Part shown: positions 4,727 through 58,210 of the stretch, one piece after another
How the letters are laid out: every line of letters begins with the position of its first letter
Position numbering within the stretch: position 1 is the stretch's first letter
DNA from: Trichobilharzia szidati
Lineage: Eukaryota > Platyhelminthes > Trematoda > Strigeidida > Schistosomatidae
Length of the DNA stretch: 64,000 bases
Direction of reading: 5' to 3'
Assembly (NCBI GenBank): GCA_944472155.2
Contig: OX235273.1
Location: 31,097,204 to 31,161,203, forward strand
Made by a program: the position numbers and the translations under genes
Notes under the pieces: generated by a model
The model's input: only the letters and a program-made list of their open reading frames with translations
Told to the model about the DNA's origin: nothing
Database searches by the model: none

Positions 4727-5560
4727 AAACGTTACTGCTTATCTAGAGAAGAGGTGACAAGGGATAATAAAGTAACTTTGCCTTCAAGTTCATCTGTACA
4801 GGGGACAGTGGGTATACCTAGTACTAGTGAGACCGTCACTATTGTTTCACAAATTGAGAAACCGTAACATTTATTATTATGTAGTAATTAATTTTAATAG
4901 AACTTCAGGTTATTCCTGAAAAGATGACCCAAAATGAGCTGGTCAGAGAGTCAATTATGGAATTGTTCCTTAGGAACAATGTAACAGGGGCTGTTGCGCA
5001 AGATATCTTGAACTGTATGCGTAAATTTAATCCACATGTACCAACAACCATAAGAGGCTTGCTAAAAGATAGCGGCATGTGTGTACCTAGATTTCTTGGA
5101 CAAGGTGTTTACTATCACGTTGGACTGAAGGAAAATCTACAGCGTTATCAAGATAGTTGGATTGACTACGGTACTTTTCAACATATTGGCTTGCAAATCA
5201 ACTATGACGGTTTATCTATATCGAACAGTTCTTAGCAGCAATTATGGCCATTCCTAGGTCGTATCACAACTCCATACGTCAGTGACGTTTTCTTAATTGG
5301 CATACATGGCGGTTTGAGAAAACCGAACAACTTCAATGAGGTTTCTATGGACCTATTAGTTGAATTGAAAGATCTTTATAAAAACGGTCTATATGATGAG
5401 AAGTGGGGTAGGAGTGTGACTGTAAGTGTTCTAGCATTTATATGTGACACGCCTGCTCGTTCTAAGGTAAAACAAACCGTCGGTCACAATGGAAAAACAG
5501 GTTGTGATAAATGTGAAGTTATAGGTTGTCGTTTGGAGGGTAGGATGACATGTCTGATTA
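4727..5560 (+). pseudogene. CACTA-type transposase remnant, copy A
   Basis: This is the truncated partner of copy C (19620-20870). It keeps the CLSREEVTRDNK segment, the mini-intron, the LFLRNNVTGAVAQDIL block, and the conserved YDGLSISNSS ... LWPFLGRI ... FLIGIHGG ... FICDTPARS ... GCDKC core. The frame is broken by TAG at 5233-5235 between NSS and QQLWPF, as in the other copies. The layout DGL-WP-GxGG-KP-DxPARS-GxxxCxxC resembles the TNP2-like core of CACTA/EnSpm transposases. Schistosomes are known to carry a CACTA family (SmTRC1); assignment to that family is inference. The remaining C-terminal part is absent. Confidence 0.65.
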
Positions 5561-5982
5561 TTATCATGATTCTTATTATTAATATTTTTGAATGAATGAG
5601 TGAAAATTGTCTTTAAGATGTAGTTGAATGTCAAGAATTCCCGTTCTCTGGCGTTACTTTCACTCAGTAGTCTCCTACCGCACGACTAAATTCTCCCAAA
5701 TACAATCTCTCTTCACTGACTGGCTAACAAAATACTGCCTTGATAATCTCACTCTCTTACTCATTCATTTACTTACTCACTCCTCCCTTACCTAGGCACT
5801 TAATGATTTTTTGTCTCTAACACTGGCTGACTGCCCATGAACATCACTCACTGAAGACGTCTTCAACTAAACAAGCACCTGCCTAATATTCACGCAATCA
5901 TTACTCAGTGAAATAAGTACTCTATTAAAAATCCGGACATTTCATTACGTAGTTACTTGCATAATCACTTGCTTGCTCGCTT

Positions 5983-15197: not shown

Positions 15198-15640
15198 AAG
15201 CGAGCAAGCAAGTGATTATGCAAGTAACTACGTAATGAAATGTCCGGATTTTTAATAGAGTACTTATTTCACTGAGTAATGATTGCGTGAATATTAGGCA
15301 GGTGCTTGTTTAGTTGAAGACGTCTTCAGTGAGTGATGTTCATGGGCAGTCAGCCAGTGTTGGAGACAAAAAATCATTAAGTGCCTAGGTAAGGGAGGAG
15401 TGAGTAAGTAAATGAATGAGTAAGAGAGTGAGATTATCAAGGCAGTATTTTGTTAGCCAGTCAGTGAAGAGAGATTGTATTTGGGAGAAATTAGTCGTGC
15501 GGTAGGAGACTACTGAGTGAAAGTAAGGCCAGAGAACGGGAATTCTTGACATTCAACTACATCTTAAAGACAATTTTCACTCATTCATTCAAAAATATTA
15601 ATAATAAGAATCATGATAATAATCAGACATGTCATCCTAC
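14546..15640 (+). repeat. duplicated downstream flank (copy 3)
   Basis: Shared with 985-1735 and 26665-27268 direct, and with 5561-6640 inverted. It includes a long (CCAG)n microsatellite at about 15132-15197, GAGT tracts, and the palindromic GAAGACGTCTTC at about 15317-15328. The part from 15340 to 15640 is also shared with 20900-21170 inverted and, diverged, with 22980-23150. No gene is supported. Confidence 0.8.
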
Positions 15641-16224
15641 CCTCCAAACGACAACCTATAACTTCACATTTATCACAACCTGTTTTTCCATTGTGACCGA
15701 CGGTTTGGTTTACCTTAGAACGAGCAGGCGTGTCACATATAAATGCTAGAACACTTACAGTCACACTCCTACCCGACTTCTCATCATATAGACCGTTTTT
15801 ATGAAGATCTTTCAATTCAACTAATAGGTCCATAGAAACCTCATTGAAGTTGTTCGGTTTTCTCAAACCGCCATGTATGCCAATTAAGAAAACGTCACTG
15901 ACGTATGGAGTTGTGATACGACCTAGGAATGGCCATAATTGCTGCTAAGAACTGTTCGATATAGATAAACCGTCATAGTTGATTTGCAAGCCAATATATT
16001 GTAAAGTACCGTAGTCAATCCAACTATCTTGATAACGCTGTAGATTTTCCTTCAGTCCAACGTGATAGTAAACACCTTGTCCAAGAAATCTAGGTACACA
16101 CATGCCGCTATCTTTTAGCAAGCCTCTTATGGTTGTTGGTACATGTGGATTAAATTTACGCATACAGTTCAAGATATCTTGCGCAACAGCCCCTGTTACA
16201 TTGTTCCTAAGGAACAATTCCATA

Positions 16225-16509
16225 TTTTTCAAGTTTTTGTTTGTAGGGATTTGATTGGTTACAGGATTTCATCATGAGCTGACATTAGTTAGAGAACCAT
16301 TGGAGAACCTGGGAGTACTAGACAGCTGTTTCGTCCTAGTTTGGGAATCTTCATCAGTACGCACCCACCGGGATAAGAACCCACGACCATCTGGTAACAA
16401 GGCGAGCTCGCATAATTTGAAGCGACTCGGACCCCATCCAATGGCCCTTGAATTCTAACTTCTGCCAATTCACGACATAGCGCGACCCCTAGAAAATGTC
16501 TTCGGCGAG
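16225..16509 (-). mobile_element. tRNA-derived SINE with hammerhead ribozyme
   Basis: A 285-bp insertion on the minus strand, bounded by a perfect 9-base duplication AATTCCATA at 16216-16224 and 16510-16518, and absent from CACTA copies A and C at the same site. It has a tRNA-like head with a B-box-like GGGTTCTTATCCC, then a hammerhead core, then a tail ending in an A-rich stretch. This structure matches the Sm-alpha type of schistosome retroposon, which is known to carry hammerhead ribozymes and a Pol III promoter. A diverged relative is at 58619-58885. Confidence 0.8.
16321..16364 (-). ncRNA. hammerhead ribozyme core in the SINE
   Basis: On the minus strand the order is CTGATGA (16351-16357), a helix II region with TCCC and AGGAC around an AAACT loop, then GAAAC (16328-16332), AGCTGTC and a likely cleavage after GTC. 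These are the invariant core elements of a hammerhead. Helix II has two extra bases (GATTCCC), so activity may be reduced. Confidence 0.75.
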
Positions 16510-17340: not shown

Positions 17341-19350
17341 TTACAGCAAGGTCTACACGCTATAGAATCAAGCCACAACATTGATTTCGACAGATAGACT
17401 TCGACTTCGAGAAATGAAACCCAAAATTGTAAATTCTCTCCGGTTTAAACTAAAACCAAAGTCTTATGTGCTTTCAAGATTCTACGGCCAACCAAAGATA
17501 CATAAACCCACAGTTCCATTAAGACCAGTAAAAGATTTCACCAACTCACCGACATACAACCTATCTGAATACTTACTCTCGGTACTACAAAATGACACTC
17601 AAAATATTGTAAGGAATTCATATGATTTCAAATCCCAAACAGAACACCGAGACACTGATAAAGGAGACATTATGGCAAGCTATGATATTAACTCATTATA
17701 TACTAATATCAATTACCGAAAGTCTTGATATCATTTCCAGTCTACTAGAATCAGATACAATCCTATCACAAAGATGTCCACTGGACACCAGTGAAATAAT
17801 TAAGAGCTTGAAATTCTGTCTAGAAAGTAATTATTTTACATTTAAAGGGAGTTTATATAGACTGAAAAATGTTGTTGCTATGGGTTCACCAGTCTCCCCA
17901 ATAATCGCCGACCTTTTCATGAATAGATTCGAAAATAACATCTTTTCAAGAATACTCACTCCTAAAATATGGTTAAGATATGTAGATGATACTTTTGTAA
18001 TACTAAAACGAGATCTACACAATTCATTCCTGGAGAAAATAAACGGTGTATCTCCCAGAATCCAGTTCACTTCGGAAGCAAAATCAAACGTCGGTGAACT
18101 ACCATTTCTAGACTTCCTAGTTAAGAGAAGGGAAAACGGACATTTTAGTATATCCATATTCAGGAAGAAAATCCACTTAAATAAATATTTAGATTTCAAA
18201 TCATCACACCCCATCAGCGCAAACATTTCAGTTGTTTCAAGTCTTCTTAGACGAGCACACTCCTTGATAATCGACGAGAAAGAAAAAGAAGAAGAAATAT
18301 CAAACATTAATGAAACTCTCAAGCAAAACAACTACCAAGGGACTTCATCAACAGAATCAACACAGACATTGAGTATGGACGAAAATGCATTCCCAAAATA
18401 TGGACCTCAACAGTCGTCATTCCATATAGAGCAGAGACGTCAGATGATATCAGAAGAGTACTCAATCAGCTCGACACTGGAGTTTTCTTCAAAACATTAG
18501 ACACACTACGAAACAACCTTGTCCATATAAAAGACCAAATCCCTAAAGATTCTCTAAATAATCGTATCTATAAAATAAAATGCTTGGAATGTGATGCGAT
18601 ATACATCGGACAAACATCTCGAGAAATCAAAATCAGAAGAAATGAACACCGCAGAGAGTCTGTTCCACCACCGAGAAATCCCGTTGAACTACAAAAACTT
18701 GAAAAATCATCAGCCATAGGTCTACATGCTATAGAATCAGTCACAAAGTTGATTTTGACAATATTGAAATAATCCAGAAAAACTTCAGAAATCACAAAGA
18801 ACGTCTCATATCATCAGAAGCACTTCATATCAAGTGGAATCCAAATTGTCTAAACTGAATAGGAATGATGGACTAAAACAGAATCTGACCTGGTTACAAC
18901 TCCTCCCTCCCCCACCAAGTGACAAAATCAACACGAATGTGATAAGCAAGTTCACTATGTAAACACACACTACTTTTATTATTTTACACACCGATCAAAT
19001 CCAACAATCCACACCTGATTTTGTTATCTTCACCAATTGACCAACTTGACAACTAAAAATGGCCCCAGACAGACGAACGATGATCAAGTTAGTAAACTTA
19101 ATTTTGATATCATAACAGACGTACTATTACCTTTGTTATCTGGTTTAGTTATCTTCATTGCTGCTTTTACTTTCAATATATCCCTTTAACTTGACCTATG
19201 TCTATTTTCTCACCCCCTAACTGTTTGTTATATATATGCTGAGATTTTGTAAATTCCGGTTTAATGATACTTTGATAAAGCTATTAGCATTAAATAGCGA
19301 AACGTCAGTAAAAACAATATCGTTTTGTTTTTCATTCATTGGGAAATACA
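17341..19350 (+). mobile_element. Penelope-like element A, longest copy with reverse transcriptase
   Basis: The copy begins with a scrap of GIY-YIG tail (GLHAIESSHNIDFD, about 17350-17391) fused to the RT N-terminal part, as in tandem PLE arrays. RT blocks in order: FYGQPKIHKP and LRPV (17480-17530), ASYDINSLYTNI (about 17675-17710), VAMGSPVSPIIADLF (about 17875-17920), RYVDDTFVI (about 17970-18000) and GELPFLDFLVKRR (about 18090-18130). The GIY-YIG end follows (AIYIGQTSREIKIRRNEHR at about 18599-18655), with a stop at 18856-18858. Frameshifts near 17705, 18340 and 18740 break the frame, so the element is not autonomous. The 3' UTR runs to about 19350. Confidence 0.85.
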
Positions 19351-19619: not shown

Positions 19620-20870
19620 GTCATATATTAAAACCTTGGGAATCCAAACGAAACAAGGTGGGGGTGATTGTGTTGATTCCCCGTCGAAAACAAACACTTG
19701 CTGTAAGGAAAATGTTAACAGTTGTGATTACAATACATCTGTCATCCCTTTTCATATTAAGAAAACGGATGTTTGCCTAGAGGTATATAAGCAGTACTCC
19801 TTACATACAGAGACCATCCTTACAGGATTTATAAATCATGCAGGTGAGTTAGATTTCGGTTGTCTATTTGTCCATTTCTGTTATAAGGAAAACAACTCAG
19901 ATAATGCGTTAGATACGGGTATTCAGCATTCTGCAACAAGTCGTAAGAGAGGAATATCTTCTGGCAGACTGCATGAATGCCTTGGATACAGCTACTCCAC
20001 ATTTTATCGCCGTCAAAAACGGTTACGTGATGCAGCATATAGTGACTGGGACTTCTGGAAACGTTACTGCTTATCTAGAGAAGAGGTGACAAGGGATAAT
20101 AAAGTAACTTTGCCTTCAAGTTCATCTGTACAGGGGACAGTGGGTATACCTAGTACTAGTGAGACCGTCGCTATTGTTTCACAAATTGAGAACCGTAACA
20201 TTTATTATTATGTAATAATTAATTTTAATAGAACTTCAGGTTATTCCTGAAAAGATGACCCAAAAAGAGCTGGTCAGAAAGTCAATTATGGAATTGTTCC
20301 TTAGGAACAATGTAACAGGGGCTGTTGCGCAAGATATCTTGAACTGTATGCGTAAATTTAATCCACATGTACCAACAACCATAAGAGGCTTGCTAAAAGA
20401 TAGCGGCATGTGTGTACCTAGATTTCTTGGACAAGGTGTTTACTATCACGTTGGACTGAAGGAAAATCTACAGCGTTATCAAGATAGTTGGATTGACTAC
20501 GGTACTTTTCAACATATTGGCTTGCAAATCAACTATGACGGTTTATCTATATCGAACAGTTCTTAGCAGCAATTATGGCCATTCCTAGGTCGTATCACAA
20601 CTCCATACGTCAGTGACGTTTTCTTAATTGGCATACATGGCGGTTTGAGAAAACCGAACAACTTCAATGAGGTTTCTATGGACCTATTAGTTGAATTGAA
20701 AGATCTTTATAAAAACGGTCTATATGATGAGAAGTCGGGTAGGAGTGTGACTGTAAGTGTTCTAGCATTTATATGTGACACGCCTGCTCGTTCTAAGGTA
20801 AAACAAACCGTCGGTCACAATGGAAAAACAGGTTGTGATAAATGTGAAGTTATAGGTTGTCGTTTGGAGG
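19620..20870 (+). pseudogene. CACTA-type transposase remnant, copy C (most complete)
   Basis: The first exon (about 19636-20194) encodes a Cys-containing N-terminal part with SRKRGISSGRLHECLGYSYS and WKRYCLSREEV. A 37-bp intron (20195..20231, GTAACA...AATAG) joins AAC-C to AA, giving IEN-Q-LQVIPEKM. The second exon runs QDILNCMRKFNPHVPTTIRG, YYHVG, YDGLSISNSS, a TAG at 20564-20566, then QQLWPFLGRI, SDVFLIGIHGGLRKP, VSVLAFICDTPARS and GHNGKTGCDKCEVIGC, and ends at a donor GTAGGA after 20870. The catalytic C-terminal half is missing. The TAG is shared with copies A and B. It resembles animal CACTA-type transposase-domain proteins. Confidence 0.7.
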
Positions 20871-21297
20871 GTAGGATGACATGTCTGATTATTATCATGA
20901 TTCTTATTATTAATATTTTTGAATGAATGAGTGAAAATTGTCTTTAAGATGTAGTTGAATGTCAAGAATTCCCGTTCTCTGGCGTTACTTTCACTCAGTA
21001 GTCTCCTACCGCACGACTAATTTCTCCCAAATACAATCTCTCTTCACTGACTGGCTAACAAAATACTGCCTTGATAATCTCACTCTCTTACTCATTCATT
21101 TACTTACTCACTCCTCCCTTACCTAGGCACTTAATGATTTTTTGTCTCTAACACTGGCTGACTGCCCATGAACATCACTCACTGAAGACGTCTTCAACTA
21201 AACAAGCACCTGCCTAATATTCACGCAATCATTACTCAGTGAAATAAGTACTCTATTAAAAATCCGGACATTTCATTACGTAGTTACTTGCATAATC
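20871..21297 (-). repeat. duplicated flank without its gene
   Basis: Same sequence as 5561-5967 and inverse of 15240-15640. It breaks off at 21297 just before the point where the (GGCT)n tract and a gene copy would follow, and continues into a CCACCA-rich repeat related to 8810-8850. Confidence 0.75.
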
Positions 21298-38090: not shown

Positions 38091-38098
38091 TATATAAA
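38091..38098 (+). promoter_or_regulatory. TATA box of the micro-exon gene
   Basis: TATATAAA lies 73 bases before the start codon at 38164. Confidence 0.6.
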
Positions 38099-38163: not shown

Positions 38164-41100
38164 ATGCTGATGTTATTCAACTGGCTGATTATCATTCTGG
38201 TTTTACAAGCCTGTGGTAATTAAAGCGTTTTCTGTTTTCACAAATTTGAGAAGTTTCATTTCTGATTTATATTTCGAAAATTTTTCCAAATTGAAATTCA
38301 TATTTTCTGGTAATTTGAATATAAAGATGTTATTTCGATTGATAATGGCTGACAGTGTAATTTAGGAGGCTAATTTATTATTCTGCAGATTTTTCCAGTC
38401 GACGTAAGATGGTTGTTAACTCCAACATAAACCAGATAGAACGATATGCAAACGTGATTGCGACAGGCTACTGCACACTTTCGCCAATATCAACCTTAGC
38501 ACGTTCCATAGTGAAGATGAGATTGCTGAGAAGAATTGGCAACAAGGAGTTGCGGAAACAAAAATGATCAAGAACATATGATCCAACAAACATGCAGAAG
38601 TAAGCAAGGAGAGATTGGACATACTTTGAGGAAACTATTCAGTCACATCGCGTTCCATGCTATCTAGGGCGTCTGTTAATGACGTGCAGTAGATTGTGTG
38701 ACTGGGAGGTTGACAGTGGTGCACCTGGCTATGGAGGACCACAGAAACAGGATGAAATGTAGATGTACAGTTGAAGCTGTGTACTCAACTCGGAAGCTAA
38801 GGATGGTGATGTATTCCTCATTCAGCTAATCTCCGTCATTGCAAAATACTGTTTGAGGACAGTTTGATCACCGACATTCAACACACAGAATTCAAGTGAT
38901 TGTATGCAAAACTTGCATTTGATTTCATCATAAGTATTTAGCATTTTTCTGTATCTGTCTATACACTGAAGACTACAGTCATATACTTCTCTCTACATTT
39001 CATTCTAATATTCGTATAATCAGTGCACTTACATGCAGGAGGACATGAAGGTTTCTGTGAGTTATTATGAATTAATTATTTAACCTTATTTCAGGGTATT
39101 TTCAATTCACATGGGTGGCTTCCAGCTAGGTATCAGCTTCTATCAGGGAAATTGCATACTTTGAGTTTAAATATTAACTTATGCATAAAAAGGGGTATAA
39201 AAGACACTGGTTAGCATAAACTTATGAAAACAGTGTGTTGCTTCAGTAAAGTATACGCAATCGGTTAAAGGATCGTGTAGAGCCTTTAAAACAAAACAAT
39301 TTAGTCTATCTAATACCCTGCAATGATTTTCAGCTCAAATACATAGGTCAAACATAAAATCTTAGCAAAATCTAGATTGGTTGACCCGAATAAAATAAGA
39401 AATCTAGAGGATAGTTCAGCTATAGCACTTCATGCAGTCACACACAACCATACAATAGGATGGGATAGGATGACAGTTTTAAAATCTAATGTCACAGGGT
39501 ATAAGGAGAAATTGATAACAGAAGCTTTGTTTATCGAATCAACTACAAATACATGTAATAGGAATGATTCATCACCTGTCCCAGATATCTGGAAAATTCT
39601 ACCACCCCTACGACAAATAGGAGAAAACAAAGAAAGCTATTAAACTCAAGTATCAAAGTCGTGTGATCACAATTGATATGATCATGAACAATACATTTTG
39701 TTCAAAACATCATCCAGTAAATAATACTGTTTCACTGTGATATATCTAATAAACAAACTAATATGGAAGGCTACTGACCTATTTTGTCAGTGTCAACCTT
39801 CGCAGACTCCATAGTGAAGATGAAATGGCTTGCAAGATTTGACAACAAGGAGTTGTTGTTCGGTCACATAGCGTTCCACGCTCTCTAAGGTTTCTGTGGC
39901 CGATGTTGAGGAGATTGTAGGATTGAGAGATTGACAATGGTGCACCTGGCTATGGAGGACCGCAGAAAACAGGATGAAGTGTAGATGTGCAGTTGAAGCT
40001 GTGTACTCAACTCAGAAGCTAAGGATGGTGATGTATTTCTCATCAAGGTAATCTCCGTCATTACAAAATAATGCTTGAGGACACTTTGATCACCGACATT
40101 CAACACAGAATTCAAGTAATTGTATGCAAAACTTGCATTTGATTTCATCATAATTATTTAGCATTTTTCTGTATCTGTCTATACACTGAAGACTACAGTC
40201 ATATAATTCTCTCTATATTTCATTCTATTATTTCTATAAGCAGTGCATTTAGATGAAGAAGGAGAAAAAGGTCTTTGTGAGCTATTATGAATTCTTTATT
40301 TATCGTTGATTCAGTGTACTTTCAATTCACATGAATGGCTTCCAGCTAGGTATCAGCTTCTATCAGGGAAATTGCATACTTTGAGTTTCACTATTTACGT
40401 ATTCATAAAAAGGGGTATAAGAGACATTGGTTTGCATAAACTTATGAAAACAGTGTGTTGCTTCAGTAAAGTATACGCAATCAACTTAACATTAAGTCAA
40501 CTAAAAGCAACTTTCCATAGATTTATTACTTACAATTGGAAGTGAAAAGCGATCGCAACAGGCTACTGCCCTCTTTTGTCAGTGTCAACCTTCGCACACT
40601 CCATAGTGAAGATGAAATGGCTTGCAAAATTTGACAACAAGGAGTTGTTGTTCGGTCACATAGCGTTCCACGCTCTCTAGGGTTTCTGTGGCCGATGTTG
40701 AGGAGATTGTAGGGTTGGGAGATTGACAATGGATATGGAGGACCGTAGAAAACTGAATAGAATGGAGATATTCTGTAGAAGCTCTGTGTTCAACTCTGAA
40801 GCTAAGGAAATAATAGCAATGAGTTGTGTGTGGTAACCGTGTTCCTCATCCAGCTAATCTCCGTCATTGCAAAATACTGTTTGATGACAGTTTGATCAAC
40901 GACATTCAACACACAGAATTCAAGTAATTGTATGCAAAACTTGCATTTGATCTCATCTTAAGCATTTAGCATTTATTCTTTATCTGGCTATACACTAAAG
41001 ACTAGTCATTTACTTCTCTCTATATTTCATTCTATTATTTGTATAATCAATGCATGTGATGATATTTAATGAAGAATTATAATTACATTTAGATAATCAA

Positions 41101-44100
41101 AGATTGATGTGGGACTGTGAGTTATTATGTATTCATTTTTTATCCTTGATTCGGGTTATTTTCAGTTCACATGAGTGGCTTCCGCCTAAGTGTTAGCTTT
41201 TATCACGGAAAGTACATATTTTAAGTTTAACTAATTACGTATGCATAAAAAGAGGATATACGAGTGACTGGTTTGCTTAAATTAATCAAAACAGTGTATT
41301 GGTTCGGTAAAGTATACGCAATCAACTCAGTATAAAGTCAACTTACAGCGAATTTCCATGGACTTATTACATACAATTAGAAGTGCTTCTTCTCAACCCT
41401 TATTTCTTTTCCCCCATAGACGCGTATGAATTTTTGGTCATTTAGGTACCTGGTTAAAGAACATAGTCTTGTTTCAAAATTTATTTGTCGAAAAATTTAT
41501 AGATACTGAGAAGGAAAAGATATTTTCGTTCACTTCTGAGGAACATTTCAGCTAAACTAAAGTTTGCTTTGTTTCAGGAATCTATTAGATTCATATACAT
41601 CGTGTTTAAACGATTCATATTAAGGTAGAAATTTATCATGGTTGTATTTGCAAATTTAATTTTCATATCATATTATTAGATTGGATATTTAGCGTAAAGT
41701 ACAACTAAGAACACATGGTGAATATGCCAGAAAACCTTCATTTCACTTTTCCCTTGAAACTTAAAATTCTAAACGTCTAATGTATTGGCGCGAAACATTT
41801 CGGACATTGTGATCACACATGTACTTGTCATACACAGTTTTATAGAAGGTAAGAAGGCATGAATAATTACAATACAGGTCAGATTGTACACAGGCCAAGG
41901 TCACAAATAATGGGTAGGGAGACGCAAAAGGTGTGGGTAAGAAAGACAAAAGGAGAAAAGCAAGGCAAAGAAGGGGTTGAAAATATTATGAAGTAAATTG
42001 GTCCTTGGTTCTTAATTGGATTACCAAGGCAGGTTTAAGGTGATAACAAATAACTTTTGAACACGTAAGACAGATTAAAGTCTTTTTATGGCTAAGGCTT
42101 CAATGAATTTAAGTATAGGAATTTAAGGCAGATCGATGGTGTTGCTATGGGAAGCCCCCTATGTCCAATGGTAGCTGATATATATATATATGTCGCATGT
42201 CGAGAACCTGGTGGAGAAAGAAATTGGAAAAGTTTATTTTTATCAAAGATATATAGATGACATAATAGTCATTTGTGATAAACCGGCAGACACCACAGAA
42301 ATCCTGAACCGGATCAACACAGCACAAAACATTATATCACTAACATACGCTAAAGAGAATAATAGATGCCTGCCATTTTTAGATGTACTAATAACCCGCC
42401 GAGAAGATGGGTCAGTAAAACGATCAGTCTACAGAAAGTCCACATGGACGGGACAGTACCTAAATTATCATAGTTTCTGTCCACTACAGTATAAAAAGGC
42501 GTTGGTTTAATGTTTGTTCAAGCGTATTCACCGTATATGTACTGCCGATACAATTGAAGAAGAAAGACAACACCTCACTGAAATATTGTTAGATAACAAT
42601 TACCCACTGAGATTTATTGGACGTTACGGAAGCATAAACCATAGAGCTTTACAAATCCAAACAGCTCCCAAAAAAGATGTTTACATATCCTTGCCGTTCA
42701 GAGGTGATCAACAAGGTCTAGTCACTAGACAAAGACTCAAGGCCGCAATTAATAGGACCTATTATGCAGCTAAACTTATCTTCATAGAGAAAACGGGAAC
42801 TATGCTGTCCGGTAAACCCTCATATTATCCGAACGATATTGTCACATCCCACTGTGTTTATCAATTTACATGTATGTGTGGCGACACGTACATAGGGAGG
42901 GCCCATCGGTCTCTGCAGGTTTGGGCCACAGAACATATTCCAAAGTAGCTGCAACAACAAATGAAATCGCCAGACACAAATGAACCCGGAAATAGATGTC
43001 CAACATCATCTATAGCGAAGCAGATAATAGAGACGGGTCATAAGGTTGATTTAAACAATGACTTTAGGCCGATACATAAAACAAGGTTGGGCCACATACT
43101 AAAATTTATTGAAGCCTTAGCCATAAAAAGACTTTAATCTGTCTTACGTGTTCAAAAGTTATTTGTTATCACCTTAAACCTGCCTTGGTAATCCAATTAA
43201 GAACCAAGGACCAATTTACTTCATAATATTTTCAACCCCTTCTTTGCCTTGCTTTTCTCCTTTTGTCTTTCTTACCCACACCTTTTGCGTCTCCCTACCC
43301 ATTATTTGTGACCTTGGCCTGTGTACAATCTGACCTGTATTGTAATTATTCATGCCTTCTTGCCTTCTATAAAACTGTGTATGACAAGTACATGTGTGAT
43401 CACAATGTCCGAAATGTTTCGCGCTAATACATTACATGTTTCAGATAAACTACGTTTTCTTATTGTGTTGTAGAAATTCATAAGGGGAACTAATTGCTTT
43501 AAATTTTTGAAAATTCTAAATTGATAATCTTTATTTTGATGAAGTATGAGTGAATTTTCAGTAGGTTAGATAAGCAGCGTATTGCATCTTATCCCTTCTA
43601 CATTATACAAACATCCGTTCAAGTTAACGTGTACTGAAGTGACCTGAGTAAGCTCCTAAGTGGCCGGATTCAATCAGCAAACTACCTGAATTTTTAACCA
43701 AATTAGCGCATCAGTTTTTATCTTATTTTTTATTGATTTAATCCCTGAATGATGCTTTTGGATAGCGAAATGTATTCACACACATTTTCATTTGACTTCC
43801 ATCTAACTGTTGAGCATTTGTTTTATACGAAAAGAAATATTACAAAGTAATGGTTTTTCTGCCGATATAAGAGCATCGTGTCACGTGATGCACAACAGAT
43901 TCTTGTTTTACCGTAAGATATATTGTTCATTCTATTACACCGAGAATTTTGCATATTGTGTAAACACTGTGCTCAGAATAAAACCGGTTATCACAATATT
44001 ATACTTTTATAAATTCAACATATGGAAACACACACAATTAATCAGAATCAGTTTCAGTCTACTTACAATATATCGATTGAAGGTTGTGGAAACAGCCTTT

Positions 44101-47100
44101 CGGAATTTTCTTAGTTTGTTTCCAGTTTCACAATTATCGTGAATCATTCTTTGATAAATAGTCAGTGTGACTGACACGATTTCGCCCATTTTACTCTTAA
44201 CATCTCTGACTACAATTTCACTTTAAATCACCAATATTAGTGTACACAGTCAGTAAACCTGATTCCGTCTTGCAACATTTTATTTCCAGGTTTCATTGCA
44301 TGCATCGAAAAACGTAAGGAAAGAAATGTATTTAGCACTGAATAATTTTCACATGATATCTGACAATCTATGCATTTTATTGTTTGAACATCTCATTAAT
44401 ACCACCAATATTACTTGTGAATGATAGTACTGTTATTCCAAACTGACAAATACTGAAGTTAACTAACGCAGTATCCTGTTTCTAATATCCTAACCGGATT
44501 TGATTCATAACACTTCTTCATATTTCGTGGAATATACAAATCAGTTCATAAGGGAAAAACACATTTTTCATGTTCCGCGAAGAAATATCTCTTTTCAACA
44601 ACTGCATTTTTCAAGCTTTATTGTCGCATTTATATTACGGAAAAAGGCATTACGTCGCACTAGAAATTCCTCAGTCGATTTGCATATGATAAGAATAAAG
44701 ATAATTACAATGAAGTATCAAATGGGTAGAGTTGCAGTGAATGAATTACAGAATTTTTAAAGATTATTAAATAAATGTACTGGTATAAAGATTTCAAAAT
44801 TGCAGGTCAAATGATGTCTAAAAAATTAACAGTTTGTTAATTGTAACAGTAAAGACAGCGAAGGTGGAATTAATTCAAGTGGTGAAATAAAAAAAAAAGA
44901 ACATAACTATGACCAAGGTAAAGAGAGGGGCTTAACAAAAGGTTTTTGAACACATAATTTAGGTTTCTGTCCATGTATAGCTGGAGTTTCGGTTATGCAT
45001 AACTTGAGGAAACGTAAGCTTTTTGAGTGATTGGATTTCGTCCAGTAAATAACATTCAAGGACAAATCACGTGGGGATGAATGAGGTGACTCTAGAATGT
45101 GTTCACAAATAGAAAACTTTGTCGTTCTCTGCTCACCTTTTCTCAACCAAACCAGGTAGTGTCCAGCTACACGTTTTACATTTCTACTTGGTTCATCTCA
45201 TGTACACTGATCAATAAATGTCATAGATATTGTCTCTGTGAACAAGAGACTACAAAACTTTTGACAAGTTTTTCACATAATTTCAGATGACCCCAGTCCA
45301 ACATGTTGTAAGTAATACATTTTAACTACAGGTTTGAGTGAATGCATATTCTGTTTGAAATTCTGTAGTGATATAATGTTCATAATGACACTGTTCCTAA
45401 TCTAGCCAAATTTGGCTGAAAAAGTCTCAGAACCTTTGCCAAATACACTTTTCAAGTATCTCCGCTAATTTCATATAATCTTATCATCATTTTTGGTAGA
45501 AATTACATCACTATAGACGAAAAGTAAAACTTTTTGAATATTTACCGAAAAATGTTTAGTGATTGGATTTAAACCGATCAATGATGATTGTGGTAAGTCA
45601 TATATTTGAATTAAAACATCACATCAACATATGCTATTTTGACTCCCACTACCCCAATGAGCGTTAGGAAAGAGGTTACAAATTCATGGACATGGCTAAC
45701 AACATAAATATTATGTAAGCGATTCTAAAGTGTTGTTTTCTAATTCAAGAGAAGCTCTTGAGATTTTCATGGACACAAAACAAGGAAGAGATTTCCATAA
45801 AATTTGTTTGCTTCCAGATAGTGACTGTTTATTAACCATATATCTGTCAAACATTTTCTTTAAATTTCTGTTAATAATAATATTTACTAAGCATTATAGC
45901 CGAATTCGATGCCGAATCGGTAGTATGCTTGCCAGTAACATACGTGGTGCAAGACGCATTCCTAAGCCTCTCTTAGCTGGCAGTGGAGTGAAGAAAGAGG
46001 GAAGGTTATGCGTGAAACCAGCTGTGAGCCCCATGTTCGCATAGGAACACAAAATAATGAAACAAACAATTTAGAAGTAGAAACATGTACAGATTTCAAA
46101 AGAATAATATCTGTACAGACTCAGTAACTTTTTCAAAATCGATAAAATTAGTGCAGGGAAAAGAGACTGTAAACCAGACTAGTTTGATTTTGTTTTATCT
46201 GAGAATTATTCCTCGGTGGATCGAATTCATTATCATTGAGGGCAAAAGATATGCTCAAATGTGCAATGAGCACTCCATGTCCATTTTAGATCAGTGACTT
46301 TGAAATCACCATTCTAACTAGCTTGATATTACTTATCATACAATTTAAGATAAAAGGAGAGGTTATTGAATTGTTTTATTTGTCTTGACGGAAAGTTGAC
46401 TTATCCGATACATGATTGTGCAGAAGACCAAGAAGTTTAACAAAGGCACCTTTCCGGTGATTTCAATTTCAAAAGCTATACAAGTGAAATCAACACACAC
46501 ACACGTAATTTGACGTTATTAAAATAATCAGCTAGTCTGATATCGAATTTCAGTCAAGAGTAAAGGAGATAAAAATTTAAAAATTGACGAGAAAATTGAT
46601 GAGTGTGGTGAGAGACGAGTATGAATCGCAGGAGGCATGGAGACTGTGAGAGGTTGGATTAGGCGATTAGTTGCCTGCAGTGTAAAATAGTTAATTTTAT
46701 ACCGAAGAGTGAGGTGATTAGATTGTACATGGAAACATTGAAATATTGTTTTATAAATGAAGATGATAGAAAATTCCAAAAGAAAAATGAGCTTAACAGT
46801 TGTAGATCGCTTATCTATGAACAAGTTGAACCAGATTCTTTTGAACACTAAGCTCTGGTTTCATGATGCACAAAACAGCGACTTCTGCATCGTATCTCTT
46901 TAATGTCATCATATCGAATTAAGAATAATTCTAACTACGGTAGCTTATATATGTAGATTGCGACTGTACAACTCAAGGGAAATAAATCACTGAAAAGGTA
47001 TTCTCAGTGTTACACCTTTTCTCTTGGCAGCATTTATCGTGGGGCTATTAACAGAAAAACAGATAAAAGCAGCTTTGATGGAAGAGAATCAATACTAGAC

Positions 47101-50100
47101 TTATAATTATTCGTTATTTACATTTCAAGTAGAATTTAGAATTTCATCGATATGGGATCACTGGACTCGGCTGTCTGTCATCACTATCAGCTGACCTTAA
47201 GATTTGCCACAAGCACATATCCCCTCTTAGCATGATCTCCGCCGTGTCACTTTCCGTCAATTTATTTGGATTGCATAAGAAATTCTAGCACTTAATGTCG
47301 CTCAGTGGCAACTTCAGTGTATTTGTAATCTACCTATGCTTCCTTCTGCTAATACGTTAGGCAGGAGGTATTGGCTGGTACTCTGAAAGTTCGTGTCCTG
47401 CCGGCCATTTGATCTGAGGTATCCAGCAAAGAAAGCAGGTTTTGAGGGATATGCACAGCTTGTTGTCAATGCCTACTGTTCGGACCAAATATAATCAAAG
47501 AATTAAAAATAATGCTGAAAATTCGAGGTCTTGTCCTTGTCTTATAAAAAGAAAGAAGAAATTCTTTCCCTCTCAATACGATCAAACATAGGCTAGACTA
47601 TCAAACCTCGGCTGCATAAAAGAACGTAATCTGGATGTTCTGAATACAATTTTTCATATTTTTCAGTAAAAATATAAATTTTGCATATGCTTTTTTTTAA
47701 CTTTCAGAAGACAGAGAATATGTAGAATGTGAGAATACTTTGTATTTATGCCCTAATTGAGATTTAATCGAATCAGGTACAATAACCACATAACAAATTT
47801 TGATTTTAGCAGAAACGGAAATTATACTACCCACTGAAATAAAATGGTATTTGAAAATAAGAAAGTGGTTGAACTGCCTAAAGAATGAAAGATCAGTCAT
47901 GCAATTTTCAGAAGACAGGAAAGCCACTGGAAGACGCTTGAAATTATCAAACAGCTTTTAAATATCCTCCTTATTAGTACATAACTGTGAAATCTTAATG
48001 TATAACTCACTGCATCAGATTTCAAATAAGAAGTTCTTAATTGGAGTATATAATGGATTCGTTGCATGCTAATAAAAAGCACACAACTAGTTCGTTGCTC
48101 TTTCTACGAGAAAGCCGGTGAAAAGTATAATATCGTGTCAATAAGCGATGCAATTTCGGGAAACGAATGGTGTATAGATACCGAAGTTTACATAGATCGT
48201 ATTAAATTTGATCACTGTAGAGCCAAAGCAACTTTCGGAATGTATTAATCTGTTTCGGATTATATAAAATTAAAAGGTTTAGTATTTAGGGATCCTGCGA
48301 AATGGTTTTCATACTCTCACCTCAAAGTAATAGTATAACCTTTTCAAATTCATGTATCTACTTGCTTGGAGAATAAATTCAGACAATATTACCACTATAG
48401 TTCATCTCCGCTTTCAGCATGCTTCGATTCTCGCATCTAGGTCTCACATTAGTGAAGAAATTTTCAAATCTAATAATATCAAACTGAAGAGTGATCGAAT
48501 GAATGCATTGAATGTGAATGGGAATTAAAGTTAATTGCAAAAAAGGTGTCCTTGCGTATTGATATTAAATGCATTAAGTTTAGGATTTTGAGAAAACTCT
48601 TGTAAAATGCAACATGCTTACAGAATTATAATTAAACATAAGAAACATCACAATAACAAAAAATAATCTCAGTTGCACATGAAGTATATTATTTTATAGC
48701 ATTCTCATAAATGATATTGTATATTCGATTTCAGGTGAAACCAAGTGCTACAATGAAAATATAGAGTATGTTATTCATTACTAAATTACTGAATTACTAA
48801 AAGAAACAATATGGTCATCCAGAAATGTTTTGCGAAACCTATTGCAATTAAAAGAATTTTTGTCAGAAAAATATGAAATCTTTTACTTAAGACGGTCTGG
48901 TATAGATGTAACAACCGACCATTGGTTTAAAAAGCATGACAGCTAGTTCGAATCGCTATTACCATAGTTATTATTTTCTCCTCAATGAAAACCTAATACC
49001 CTTTTAGCCAAGGGTTTTCATCAGATTAATACGAAAAACTACATTTATTGACTTGATGCACGTCTGAATACCTGATTGGCAGATACAGTGCAGATTCCCG
49101 GTTTTGAATACAAACACCAGCCTGAATATTGTACACCTTCACCACTCAGGTTTTCAAAATCAAGAGGTACACCGCACATTAATGTCACAGCATCGTCAGT
49201 TTCACCTCAGTATTATTGGTCAGTGGGTAATAATGTCAGCAAAATATTTAAAATGGTATTTTTACCCGCGCAAACATCAAAACACAATGTGTAGAATAAG
49301 TAAACTGATATGTTTAAGTCATCTTTATCATCAAAAGAACCATCACTGCAGAAAGAAAATTCCTTCCGATAACGTTGTCGGATTCTCTTCTACATTTATA
49401 CATTCGTAATAACTGAAGAATTATTTTTATTGACAGCACTGATGTTTTATAATATGTTATTGAATCATTGAATTGTTGTTAAACTGCTGGTTGTATTTTC
49501 ACAGGACTGGTTGTGACTACTCGCTCACAGATGAGGTCACTAGACCATTTGCCTGTTTTCGTATCAGTCATTTTAACTACTCTTGTGGAGCCAGTTATAT
49601 TGTCCGTTTCTCCAGGAACGTAATTTTTCCTGCTCGGGAAACACCTGTCAGTTTGGCCAAATGAAGGTGTAGAGAAAGCAATCAGCAGTTTGTTACAAGA
49701 TCACCTGATCAAAACAAACCATGACACTTTCACTAAAGAGTCCTTTTCCATCATCTATCGACTATCAGATAAACTGGTGAAGGCCGAAGATGTAGAATAC
49801 TCCAAACACGGGAGGCTCCTACAACTAGCTTAAGGTAGCTGGCGCCCTGTATTCACAAGAATCATGCTGAGCCACTACTGCTTTTAAGCATGACATTCCG
49901 TGCTGTATATAGACATTTCTTTATCCCTTGTTATCGCATTTCTATGACCAAACTGCTGTTTCCTACGTAAAATTAGTCATTTACTTAAGCAGTGACACAT
50001 AGTTACTCACACTATTTTCCCTCGACGGTTTTGGCATTATCACTCATCCATATGCAACTTATAATAAGAATGAATGTGATTAGTAGTCACCAGCATTCAT

Positions 50101-52487
50101 CAACATATATTAGTTATTAACCATGATCATTTACATTGGAATAATGGGGTTCAATCTAGTGCTACATGTCAAAGTTAAACTTTAAGCACCACTAACTACA
50201 AATCAGCTAACGACCTGCAGCGGACCAATCACATGGAAGAGGGATTTTTGATTTGAGAAAACGTACAGTTTCGAAAAAAACCGCATAAAACTGTTACATA
50301 GAGGATCTTTCGCTAACATTTGACAGGAACATCTCTCAGTTTAGCATAGGAGTGTCGATAGAAAATTCACACAACATTCTGTAGGTGTATTCATCCAAAT
50401 GACTATAAATGAGATCCTTTTGAGATCCTTCTTTGGCCCTTATCCTATTTTTCAATTATCCTCAAAATCCTTCTATATAATTCGTGTGTGTCCCTGTAAT
50501 CGGATCCATAAAATCACTAGAATGGTTCACTCTATGATGAATATATCTAAGAGATGACAGCGAGTTATAACCTTTCCATTCATCAGTATGTACTATGTAT
50601 CCCTGTTTCACCAGTCGAGTGATAATATGCACTAACGTAGTAGACTTTCTGTCTGGTATTCTCTACACGAATCCTTTCCGCAAGGAGGTGTCATATAAAC
50701 CTATCGCTGAAACATTGTTGGCTCGCTCACGACCACGGTTGTATTTTTTCTTCAGTAACACAGTTTCGTCCACATGTACGATGATGCTTTCTCCGCCTAA
50801 CAAAGAAGTAATTCTCTCAATTTTCCATGAGGCGATGTCTCTGTAGTGCTGGTACCACTGAACTGTTGACACGGGGCTATTTACAGTTTCAACAACTTCG
50901 CCTCTCACAGGCTGTTTTAAAATCCAGTAGTTACAAATATACAAAATCTGCGTTATGGAGACCTGTGACGCAGCCAAAAATGTTCCTACGAAGTACTAAA
51001 ATTATCAGCTTACCTTCCCTAATACTAACTCGTCTCATGCAAATCGCACAACGATGAACATAACCATCAATCGACCCTATAAAGCTTTCTAAACTCATGA
51101 CACCACCACATGAACAAATCCTCTCTTTCCTAAGCAACCAAATACTTATCCCCCTCGAACTGCAAGCGTAGGTTCGTTAGAGCATGCATTCGATACGAAT
51201 CAAGCGCTATTCAACCTTCAGCTCAAATACATGAACCTCATTGGAGCATTCGAGATCATTCTTGGATTGGTAGTTAGTGGTGTTTAAAGTTAAAATATGT
51301 CTGTTACACTTTTGTATATAACAACATGAATATGTTTTGAATTATAACCTATTAACAATCTGTTCGCATATAACCTTTGTAATTTTGATGTTAGTGATTC
51401 GATTTTATTTTATAAAACATAGATGTTGTCAGTGGCAGTAATTCTTAAAATATTATTGTCATAAAAGTGTAAAACCTGATGAAGAAGTGATCAGAAGGAA
51501 TATTTTTGGTCTTGTAATTAGTTTTACGAAATTTCTAATCAGTATAAATTATCAATGAATCTTTATTATCCATCAGTGACATCCAAACTTTCATATCAAT
51601 GTTAAATTTGAGTGATCGATTCATGAAAATGGTATTTCTGGCTTCTGACTGTGTACATCTTTCTTTACTACTCAAATAAACCAGTGGGAAAATCGTCTAG
51701 TCCTACATCTCACACTTACCAAAGCACCTTATTTTTAGAATGATTAATAAACACAACTATCTTTTTTTGATATGCGGCTCTGAATACGAATTTATTTCTG
51801 TAGTGAGAGAATGAAATTCAGGACGAACTTTTATATTCAGTCATCAATATGCTGCAACTGATCATTCAGGAATACCAATAAGCATCTCCTTGACAGATTC
51901 TTTTCATTTATCTGACAAAATGACTATTGCATGCAGCTGCATAATAACAGTGTTTCCCTAGGAGAATCACACTTATGTGTGGGAGGCTGTCATGATACGA
52001 TGTTTAGAAGATATTACTTAGCTGAAGTCATTCAGTTATTGGAAGAGTTTGAAGAAAATTAACTTGAAGATTTAGCCAGCCTTTGCTGATTCTATCACTT
52101 AAATATAACTCCCAGAATCAACATGTTATTCAAGCACTGCTTAAGACTCTGAGCATATCTATGCAGCATATTGGAGGCTTTCTGTAAAACCTATAAAAGT
52201 AAAATACTTTAGTTGTCATTAAAGTTGACGTTTTCATTTTCATTCCTGTCCAAATGACAACAGCATTCGCCGCATTTCATTGAGAATGTGAACAAATGAT
52301 CACTGAATAATATGGTGTTCATCCAATCAGTTATATTAAACTAATGAACGTAAAAGTCGGTTCAAGTAACAGATTTATATTTAAAGTTTGTAAGTCTCTA
52401 TTTTGATTTTTACACTGTCTTTTTCTTTTTAGCCGACTAGATGCAGCGCGTCAAGCGAGATTAGAAGGAAGAAACATCACCCATTGA
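38164..52487 (+). CDS. candidate micro-exon gene for a secreted peptide (6 exons)
   Basis: Exons: 38164..38215 (52 nt), 38389..38403 (15), 44290..44313 (24), 45287..45307 (21), 48735..48765 (31) and 52433..52487 (55, ending TGA). Each internal exon has a pyrimidine-rich acceptor (CTGCAG, TTCCAG or TTTCAG) and a donor GTAAGA, GTAAGG, GTAAGT or GTATGT. Junction phases are 1,1,1,1,2 and join to 198 bases, 65 residues, with no stop. Exon 1 is a textbook signal peptide (MLMLFNWLIIILVLQAC). Then come DFSSR, RFIACIEK, HDPSPTC, CETKCYNENI and DRLDAARQARLEGRNITH; five Cys in all and one NIT glycosylation site. Tiny symmetric exons behind a signal peptide are the hallmark of schistosome micro-exon genes (MEGs), whose variable secreted products come from exon skipping. 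The MEG subfamily is not recognised. A further 30-nt exon at 44797-44826 is possible. Confidence 0.72.
38453..39268 (+). repeat. tandem 0.8-kb unit, copy 1 (in MEG intron 2)
   Basis: First of three direct copies. Shared landmarks: GCGACAGGCTACTG start, GTGCACCTGGCTATGGAGGA, GCAAAACTTGCATTTGAT, GGCTTCCAGCTAGGTATCAG and AAAAAGGGGTATAAAAGACA. It is the most diverged of the three in its 5' third. No conserved long frame is seen. The TATAAAAG near 39195 may be a promoter-like element. Confidence 0.7.
39270..39760 (+). mobile_element. PLE fragment D between tandem units 1 and 2
   Basis: The plus strand reads a broken GIY-YIG start (YLIPCNDFQLKYIGQT at about 39300-39352, then a stop), followed by the open tail SSAIALHAVTHNHTIGWDRM and GYKEKLITEALFIE, ending 39643. 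It resembles PLE A's tail but is clearly another family member. It interrupts the regular spacing of the tandem array. Confidence 0.65.
39765..40545 (+). repeat. tandem 0.8-kb unit, copy 2
   Basis: Collinear with copies 1 and 3 and closest to copy 3 in the first 180 bases (GTCAGTGTCAACCTTCGCA, GGAGTTGTTGTTCGGTCACA). Confidence 0.7.
40556..41395 (+). repeat. tandem 0.8-kb unit, copy 3
   Basis: Collinear with copies 1 and 2, with small indels and a more diverged 3' half; the ACTTCCG splice-like site and the TATA-like motif are degraded here. Confidence 0.7.
41779..43436 (+). mobile_element. Penelope-like element E with inverted terminal copy
   Basis: A plus-strand PLE whose 3' end (43104-43436) is repeated in inverted orientation at its left side (41779-42112), about 330 bases each. 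Between them lie RT blocks GVAMGSPLCPMVADI (42138-42182), a frameshift in a (TA)n run at 42178-42190, then YIDDIIVI (about 42256), CLPFLDVLITRREDG and STWTGQYLN. One in-frame TAA (42508-42510) follows, then the linker VYISLPFRGDQ and CVYQFTCMCGDTYIGR of the GIY-YIG nuclease, and KFIEALAIKRL before the stop near 43138. The element looks non-autonomous but is close to intact in its C-terminal half. Confidence 0.85.
44797..44826 (+). other. possible additional 30-nt micro-exon
   Basis: After AAAATTGCAG, 30 bases read RQMMSKKLTV in the phase required by the micro-exon gene and end at a weak donor GTTAAT. It fits the multiple-of-three rule, but the donor is poor. Confidence 0.3.
44920..45170 (-). 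mobile_element. PLE C-terminal fragment
   Basis: The minus-strand frame has SICEHILESPH, SLRFLKLCITETPAIHGQKP and KLCVQKPFVKPLSLPW, the standard PLE tail following the GIY-YIG domain. It lies in intron 3 of the micro-exon gene. Confidence 0.65.
45310..46370. other. intronic stretch, nothing assigned
   Basis: Part of intron 4. A GC-richer patch at 45905-46040 stands out but matches no feature I can name. Confidence 0.45.
46380..47480. repeat. dispersed repeat R2, copy 1, with RTE-like end
   Basis: Collinear with 57140-58210. Shared blocks include GGTTTAACAAAGGCAC-like, ATTTCAATTTCAAAAGCT, TTGTACATGGAAACATT and TTTTATAAATGAAGATGA. The right part (about 47180-47480) contains minus-strand traces of the RTE C-terminus (VTRRRSC; IPQIKWPAGHELSEYQ). 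Confidence 0.55.
47481..48720. other. intronic stretch, nothing assigned
   Basis: AT-rich intron 4 sequence without supportable features. Confidence 0.45.
49520..49850 (+). mobile_element. PLE GIY-YIG fragment
   Basis: The plus strand reads FNYSCGASYIVRFSRNVIFP, then after a frameshift near 49660 GVEKAISSLLQDHLIKTNHD and FSIIYRLSDKLVKAED. It is a decayed PLE C-terminus (YIG is YIV) in intron 5 of the micro-exon gene. Confidence 0.65.
50174..51294 (-). mobile_element. Merlin/IS1016-type DNA transposon
   Basis: About 1.12 kb bounded by imperfect inverted repeats: GTTAAACTTTAAGCACCACT at 50174 on the plus strand, and TTTAACTTTAAACACCACTA read on the minus strand from 51294. It encloses a minus-strand transposase of the Merlin (IS1016/IS1595-like) family. 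Schistosomes are known Merlin hosts. The first 30 bases agree at about 26 positions; a shared ATGTC outside both ends may be a remnant of the target duplication. Confidence 0.75.
50400..51137 (-). pseudogene. Merlin transposase (frameshifted)
   Basis: In order on the minus strand: a CSCGG ... HRCAICMRRVSIREGKL zinc-ribbon-like start (51137-50990), WYQHYRDIASWK, GGESIIVHVDETVLLKKKYN with NRGRERANN (first catalytic D near 50769), RKSTTLVHIITRL, YIVHTDEWKGYNSL (second D near 50583), VNHSSDFMDPITGTHTNYIE and GF (E near 50472). Spacing is roughly D62D37E. Frameshifts near 50985 and 50665 and a stop near 50464 disable it. Close in layout to ISXO2/IS1595-type DDE proteins. Confidence 0.8.
51300..52400. 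other. intronic stretch, nothing assigned
   Basis: AT-rich intron 5 sequence; no supportable feature. Confidence 0.45.
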
Positions 52488-56440: not shown

Positions 56441-57139
56441 AATTTATGCTCCTTGTACAGCTAATTTTGTCTTTTTAGTCTTAATATTTGCTACACTTTA
56501 TACCAAGACGATTAAAGCAATAGTTTGTTGATTCAAATCCACCAAAATAAACACGATATTAGGAGAATAATGTCAAAATATAAAATGCAACTGTGATGAC
56601 TATGGATGGATTTTAGTGGGTGGAAACACTCTAAGCAAAGTAATGAATCTAATTCTACATCTTGTCGGCCAATGCGTTTGTACTTCAAAACATACTTTTG
56701 AGATTGTCGTGACCAGAAAACAGGGGAACGATTTTCAAAAAATGTATGAAGAGTGAATAACCGACTGTTTATTGTTAGCAGGTCTGTCGTTAATCGTATT
56801 TTACTAAACATTTCAGAGGTTGGCAAATACACAGGGAATCGTGCGCGAAGTATCAGTAATATTCTCACATAGTGAGAAAGTTAATACAGTGAGAGGAGTC
56901 AGTAAACTAGAATAGCTTGCTTATATTTCTTTTAAGGATTGTTCATCAAGCAATAGAAGTTTTTATCATCGAAACTATAAATGAACTCTGAGACAGCGAA
57001 AAACAAAATGTCTAAAATTACAGTGACCCTTCGTGCTTTTCTTTTTGGATCGAAGTCTTAACAGACGCAGTTCCACCTACTTTGTCATTTCTTGTCATAG
57101 AATTTAACAGAAAAAAGGAGACATTGCCTAACCGTTTAA
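56441..57139. other. non-coding stretch
   Basis: A 111-codon minus-strand frame at 56533-56868 has no recognisable motif; not called. Confidence 0.45.
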
Positions 57140-58210
57140 CTTGTGCCAACTGAAAGTTGATTTATCTAATACATCTTTGTTGAGAAAACCAAGAGGTTTA
57201 ACAAAGGCACTTTTTCGCAGATTTCAATTTCAAAAGCTGTACAGGTGTAATCAGCACACACATTCACAAATTTACATCATTAAAATAGTCACCTAGTTCA
57301 ACATCAAAATGGAGGCGAGATTGAAGGAGATAATAATTTTCAAACTGACGTGAGAATTGACGAGTGTGATGAGAGACGAACGTAAATGATAAGAGTCACT
57401 GAGACTGAGAAAGGTGGGATTGGGAGATCAGCTGCATGAAATACAAATTAGTTTATTTTATTTCGAAGATAAATATGATCAGGTTGTACATGGAAACATT
57501 TAAATATAGTTTTATAAATGAAGATGACAGAAAATCCCAAAGTAACGAAACATGACTACATCATTGGTGAATGCACAAGTCGAACCAGATTTTTTTGGAC
57601 ACTAAGCTCTACTTTCTTGATGCATAAGTTTATGACTTTCCCATCCAATCTCATCAGTGTCTACATATCTATTATAAAAATAGTTGTAACTATGCTCACA
57701 TAGGTAATAAAATTGTTGCTGCACCACTTGTGAGAACTGGGTCACCAACAATATAAGTTTGCAGAGAGGAATTCTGTGTTGGAAGCAGTGTTGTTGTAAG
57801 TTTTGAGAAAAGAAATAAAAGCAGCCGTTTAAAGGAGAAATAACAGTGGACTCACAATTACTCGTTATTTTCATTCCAAGTAGAATTTGAAATTTCCTCA
57901 GCATACGGCCGTTGTACTTGATTCTCTGTCATAGCTTATAGCCAGCCTGACAAATACACACGCGCATATATTTCCTCTTCACATGACCTCCTCCATGTCG
58001 CACTCCAAAGCTCAACTGGTGGCTTCCTATCTGGATTTCACGAGATGGACTGAATTATGACGTTGCTCGATGACCTTCTCAGAGAGTATCTGGAATATGC
58101 GTACCTAGGTTTTCTTAAGGAAATATGACAGAAAATAGGTTGTTGGTCGCTTTTCTGAGATAGTCGATTCCTAACAGGTCTTCTGATCTAATGGGTTCTA
58201 CCGAAATCTG
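57140..58210. repeat. dispersed repeat R2, copy 2, with RTE-like end
   Basis: Collinear relative of 46380-47480. Its right part shows minus-strand ATWRRSCEEE, the same motif as VTWRKSCEEE in the RTE element at 62270. Confidence 0.55.

Follow-up and report, generated by a model that had tools for sequence, protein, structure and literature searches.

A probable multi-copy micro-exon gene of Trichobilharzia szidati, predicted to have eleven exons, most of which differ more between copies than the introns do

Does the locus considered here encode a micro-exon gene (MEG), and if so, from which exons is it assembled and what are its relatives? The window, which is the whole stretch of DNA analysed (64,000 nucleotides), spans positions 31097204-31161203 of contig OX235273.1 (hereafter C3) in a T. 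szidati assembly of 1.11 Gb; Schistosoma genomes are about 0.4 Gb. An earlier note had proposed a TATA box and six exons joining into a frame of 65 residues, and had read them as a MEG hidden between transposons. The gene is very probably real, and there is good reason for confidence that it is a protein-coding gene of the MEG type, from a schistosomatid-like fluke, with the 11 exons listed in Table 1. The six exons of the earlier note (exons 1, 2, 6, 7, 10 and 11) lie exactly where it had placed them, and the TATAAA at 38093 is retained in all ten close copies described below. GT and AG are present at all junctions, with a weak donor at exon 1, and any one of the 15-, 24- and 21-nt exons can be dropped with the frame preserved, as had been claimed. 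The six exons do join into a stop-free frame of 65 residues, but with five exons missed this is at most a short isoform. The reading as a micro-exon gene with skippable phase-1 exons and a probably secreted product is sound; the model grows, however, from six exons and 65 residues to 11 exons and 105 residues.

A blind scan for phase-1 micro-exon candidates, scored with textbook-like splice frequencies, yielded 9 in the region as against 4 on the opposite strand, while four control stretches held 7, 6, 14 and 10. The three symmetric exons of the earlier note rank 2 to 4 of the 9, behind 47708-47728, and acceptor scores are poor for exons 3, 4, 5 and 8. By splice scoring alone, the exon chain is not clearly beyond chance; paralogues raise it above chance. 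Since the splice evidence is weak by itself, relatives were sought in the genome.

The promoter together with exons 1 and 2 has at least 28 genome matches, with 26 of the 28 on C3. Exon 11 with its flanks has at least 11, as do exons 7-8 with theirs (ten at 91-100% identity); all of these genome counts are lower bounds. The matches to these three parts of the gene indicate a large family rather than a lone gene. On C3, at least 10 close matches, counting the window itself, show 93-100% identity, and at least 15 further ones lie at 67-77%. The close-copy set used here consists of the window and nine other close matches, and divides into eight complete copies and two (34.10 and 30.98) that match at the 5' end only; it leaves out places near 30.29, 31.04 and 32.91 Mb found by the searches with exon 11 or exons 7-8. 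In all eight complete copies, the borders of the earlier note's six exons are intact, and the 11-exon plan yields open frames of 98-107 residues. The closest neighbour of a copy shifts along the gene, as for copy 31.33, which suggests exchange among copies. A 5' end at C3:30979138-30979430 and later exons at C3:31040832-31045646 lie on the same strand, 62-66 kb apart, and N bases occur in the stretch after that 5' end; the two may belong to a single copy whose intron is very large.

As a single sequence, the 65 residues gave no match in a protein search and none in Pfam, and the sole PDB match of this frame was dismissed as chance. A profile of the six-exon proteins from six copies matches two proteins of Trichobilharzia regenti, here P0001 (E 5.4e-4; 94 aa, named 'Kazal-like domain-containing protein' in UniRef) and P0002 (E 1.6; A0AA85KDL2, 86 aa, 'WAP domain-containing protein'). 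With a full-length profile, which itself contains both proteins, P0001 reaches E 1.3e-44, and these two are the only matches among 4806 scored candidates. Their records may be computer gene models and are compared here as proteins; identity to the window protein is 65% for P0001 and 58% for P0002, over 97% of the length. They share with the window protein the type of leader, the cysteines, the segments corresponding to exons and the C-terminus, whereas both have one cassette segment fewer and a shorter exon-2 segment. The missed exons could be recognized because segments of P0001 that are absent from the 65-residue frame match places in the window where AG and GT border a potential exon in phase 1. 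These segments comprise two cassette segments (the window has three), exon 8 and exon 9. At the exon 5 position, copy 26.28m codes for YKGGLLWD, matching P0001, and exon 8, together with the final base of exon 7, codes for LIGFKPINDDC. Joining exon 9 straight to exon 7 would create a stop, which is abolished by exon 8 in between.

The full predicted model thus has exons of 52-15-18-24-24-24-21-33-21-31-55 nt, or 318 nt in total. Its nine internal exons measure 15-33 nt and are symmetric in eight cases; across the eight complete copies, 7 of 8 or 8 of 9 internal exons are symmetric. Exon 1 codes for MLMLFNWLIIILVLQAC, in which a putative leader was recognised by eye. The start of the T. regenti homologue corresponds to codon 3 of this exon (38170), and the first codon is ATA in one close copy. 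Beyond its hydrophobic leader, the predicted protein has six more cysteines in the fixed spacing C-x3-C-x9-C-x10-C-x7-C-x3-C. Counting one at the leader end, seven cysteine columns are invariant in all nine sequences compared (the eight copies and P0001). The conservation of exon phases among relatives, which the earlier note had put forward as a check, is borne out in paralogues of the same genome, the sister species being compared only as proteins.

Table 1. Features of the predicted gene and of the DNA within it (positions in the window)
Feature	Position	Strand	Length	Remarks
TATAAA box	38093..38098	+		Equal spacing kept in the close copies
Exon 1	38164..38215	+	52 nt	Leader-peptide exon, phase-1 end; conserved (divergence 0.014)
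Exon 2	38389..38403	+	15 nt	Borders intact in copies
Cassette copy A	38450..39262	+	~0.8 kb	First of three tandem units
Exon 3	39039..39056	+	18 nt	Inside cassette A; missed earlier; from frame and family comparison
Cassette copy B	39768..40544	+	~0.8 kb	Tandem unit
Exon 4	40253..40276	+	24 nt	Inside cassette B; missed earlier; from copy comparison
Cassette copy C	40560..41385	+	~0.8 kb	Tandem unit
Exon 5	41093..41116	+	24 nt	Inside cassette C; missed earlier; from copy and P0001 comparison
Inserted element	41771..43441	+		346-nt inverted repeats; intronic, outside the gene product
Exon 6	44290..44313	+	24 nt	24-nt exon of the earlier note; segment absent from P0002
Exon 7	45287..45307	+	21 nt	21-nt exon of the earlier note; borders intact in copies
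Exon 8	45560..45592	+	33 nt	Missed earlier; identical residues in P0001
Exon 9	47708..47728	+	21 nt	Missed earlier; best-ranked in the blind splice scan
Exon 10	48735..48765	+	31 nt	Divergence over 24 nt peaks here within the 6.2-kb block
Exon 11	52433..52487	+	55 nt	Contains the stop codon; length varies in multiples of three between copies

The two T. regenti proteins also bear on exon skipping. P0002 corresponds to P0001 minus the residues of exon 6, with C replaced by Y at the junction, as the exon ends in the window predict, and at the protein level the difference agrees with a frame-preserving skip of that exon. Such a skip takes out two of the six post-leader cysteines and leaves four. 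Cysteine parity would be affected differently elsewhere, as skipping exon 7 or exon 8 alone would remove one.

Cassette number differs between copies: three of the eight complete copies have three cassette exons, and five have two. The inserted element is missing from two of the eight (31.33 and 34.12), and its reverse-transcriptase match (42175-42510) is weak, below the Pfam cut-off. An element carried within an intron is a better description of this locus than a gene hidden between transposons. Elsewhere in the window, a reverse-transcriptase remnant at 17613-18500 is above the Pfam cut-off, and a type I hammerhead ribozyme at 16315-16360 (-) is above the Rfam gathering score; the ribozyme fits a schistosome-like fluke. 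Two segments on the same strand, 46312-47248 and 57071-57999, are ~70% identical across 944 bases, have a further match near copy 29.19m, and probably represent an old dispersed repeat. Three places (4888-5595, 15585-16268 and 20219-20926), one of them on the opposite strand, carry very similar pairs of open frames, which probably represent a repeated mobile element.

Of the 15 remote matches on C3, three were examined (27.21d, 27.37d and 29.59d) and one was extended. The central exons of copy 27.21d have lengths of 24, 21, 33, 21 and 31 nt, and all ten of their borders show the AG/GT signals. Compared with the window, 56 of its 130 exon bases and 9 of its 43 residues are identical, and all six cysteine positions are the same. 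A pattern search found the same five exon lengths in 27.37d, but the two are hardly independent because they are similar to each other. In 27.21d, three of the five exons are far less similar to the window than their flanks are, while exons 6 and 10 are about equal to theirs; overall identity is 0.43 in exons and 0.62 in flanks, a rough guide only, as ungapped alignments are set against gapped ones. Copy 29.59d (L029) shows 5' similarity only and no recognisable leader.

Among the close copies, most exons after the first differ more than their introns do. In a 6.2-kb block aligned across eight copies, the most divergent 24-nt window falls in the 31-nt exon, and none of 6015 non-exon windows is as divergent. 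In the 3' block, aligned across seven copies (29.19m, lacking an anchor, was excluded), the corresponding window falls in the last exon, equalled by none of 848. The smaller exons are less extreme individually: 84 of 832 non-exon windows are as divergent as the 15-nt exon, 189 of 6043 as the 24-nt exon and 417 of 6055 as the 21-nt exon, and exons 2, 6, 7 and 9 are each equalled by 3 to 10% of non-exon windows. Jointly, exons 6-10 have 0.155 differences per site, against 0.060 in the remainder of the 6.2-kb block, a value reached by none of 20000 random placements and, among 6210 circular shifts, by a single one. The cassette exons are likewise more divergent than the sequence next to them (0.171 compared with 0.052, and 0.224 compared with 0.100), and exon 8 is barely above its own flanks (0.076 against 0.071). 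A stretch just upstream of exon 8, at 45505-45535, ranks second in the block for divergence over 24 nt (0.27); three copies are exon-like there, and the others lack the donor. The hypervariable stretch near 45511 was tried as an additional exon and rejected, its donor not being common to all copies.

In exons 5-10, 33 of 51 codons are variable, and in 32 of the 33 the amino acid is altered. Silent sites are also above introns, with pS at 0.162 and pN at 0.154, and in the six-exon model the mature part has a pooled dN/dS of 0.74. This ratio gives no proof of positive selection, because silent differences are raised in the exons as well and the value is below one. With the introns serving as the slower standard, the pattern may nonetheless be read as diversifying selection with multiple hits. 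It may also be that the micro-exons are units of targeted diversification, with exon-limited replacement or mutation among paralogues acting besides selection and cassettes gained and lost in tandem. This idea arises because most exons exceed the introns at both silent and replacement sites, and because in the remote copies most of the exon sequence has been replaced without loss of splice sites, exon lengths or cysteines; we consider it speculative and rather improbable. Snake venom phospholipases A2 are a comparable case, in which the cysteine frame is kept, exons are rewritten and introns are conserved. The window family resembles them in having exons more divergent than introns, but the snake genes have ordinary exons and no micro-exon cassettes, and common descent is not claimed. 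A literature search, which left much of the literature uncovered, returned no paper that announces this family, or micro-exons diverging more than introns, in its title or opening lines, and one with peptide pieces of the product returned nothing relevant among the papers listed.

Known MEGs provide the closest comparison. The literature describes genes in which two longer exons, the 5' one with a leader, flank mostly symmetric micro-exons under 36 bp (PMC4671649), about 80% of the coding sequence lies in symmetric exons of 6-36 bp (PMC5825161), and dN/dS is high and the mature part evolves rapidly, with one exon duplication in MEG-3 tied to a transposon (PMC4350168). The window gene resembles Schistosoma MEGs in its leader, carried on a longer 5' exon, in its central micro-exons, which are under 36 bp and mostly symmetric, in its longer last exon (features listed in PMC4671649), and in the fast evolution of its mature part, as PMC4350168 reports for MEGs. 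It differs in the share of coding sequence in short symmetric exons, which is 52-57% in the eight copies, or 62-67% with all micro-exons counted, against the figure of about 80% in PMC5825161. Its fixed six-cysteine spacing is a further difference, as is the lack of any match to a Schistosoma protein in a profile search of a general database, which required shared 5-residue words. The gene has MEG anatomy and probably works like a MEG, and is placed in no named MEG family.

It could be argued that the gene belongs to a named Schistosoma MEG family but has diverged too far to be recognised as a member. Families 1-16 and 26-32 are listed in PMC10526429, where C-x7-H-x5-C appears as one motif of the MEG-1/3/9/28/29/31 group; this motif is present in P0001 and in five of the eight copies, the window copy among them, and relatives of MEG-4 and MEG-8 are reported from T. 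regenti in PMC5825161. Three of the eight copies carry Y in place of H, however, inspection by eye revealed none of the group's remaining motifs, and neither of the two matches from the 4806 candidates is a Schistosoma protein, in a database from which Schistosoma MEGs may be missing. Membership in a named family is accordingly doubtful, if conceivable. PMC6362228 describes MEG transcripts in T. szidati and T. regenti that seem to be avian-specific and lack close relatives among the MEGs of S. mansoni, and these may include the window family.

A second alternative is a protease inhibitor made from micro-exons, with a degenerate Kazal-like fold whose variable loops are aimed at different host proteases. 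The UniRef names of P0001 and P0002 suggest inhibitor domains, six cysteines are fixed in the copies compared, and both the spacing of ten residues from cysteine 3 to cysteine 4 and a PSPxC motif resemble Kazal domains. Pfam does not confirm the names: at E up to 10, neither protein matches the Kazal model or any other, and P0002 does not match the WAP model. A WAP domain has eight cysteines; P0002 has four after its leader, two of the family's six being absent. PDB searches gave weak matches, 5 in one and 3 in another, none of them to an inhibitor, and fold prediction failed for P0001 (mean pLDDT 55, fold not predictable). We regard an inhibitor as unlikely.

The family could also be a dead or dying relic, surviving as duplicated DNA, with exon divergence representing decay. 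Two copies matching at the 5' end only, the shortness of some genome matches and the divergence of silent sites would be expected of such a relic, but the open frames of all eight complete copies, the exon-11 indels in multiples of three and the retained cysteines and splice sites would not, and decay would not surpass intron divergence; a relic is thus very improbable. That splice-like signals assembled by chance in intergenic DNA account for the exons and the frame is hardly credible, for although control stretches hold about as many candidate micro-exons, all eight complete copies keep borders and frames, a T. regenti protein matches along the whole length, and the divergence peaks coincide with exons.

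The preferred reading remains that of a MEG-type gene with a product that, judging from the leader, the cysteines and the divergence pattern, is probably secreted. Cysteines that stay fixed while much of the sequence between them changes would be expected of a secreted protein that faces a host. The six cysteines would form a disulphide frame, around which variation could arise in three layers: among paralogues, with most micro-exons changing faster than introns; through gain or loss of micro-exon cassettes; and through skipping of symmetric exons. By analogy with other MEG products, which are thought to do so, the protein may meet host molecules in the vertebrate, and a host-facing role would follow.

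As a multi-copy example with open frames, this family illustrates micro-exon gene variation through exon-focused divergence of paralogues, tandem cassettes and, judging from the T. regenti pair, skips that would remove cysteines. Micro-exon genes, it also shows, are easily truncated by a reader who takes care, and setting recent paralogues beside one distant protein can reveal micro-exons that are missed by splice scoring. In bird schistosomes, the agents of swimmer's itch, it provides a candidate family of variable secreted proteins.
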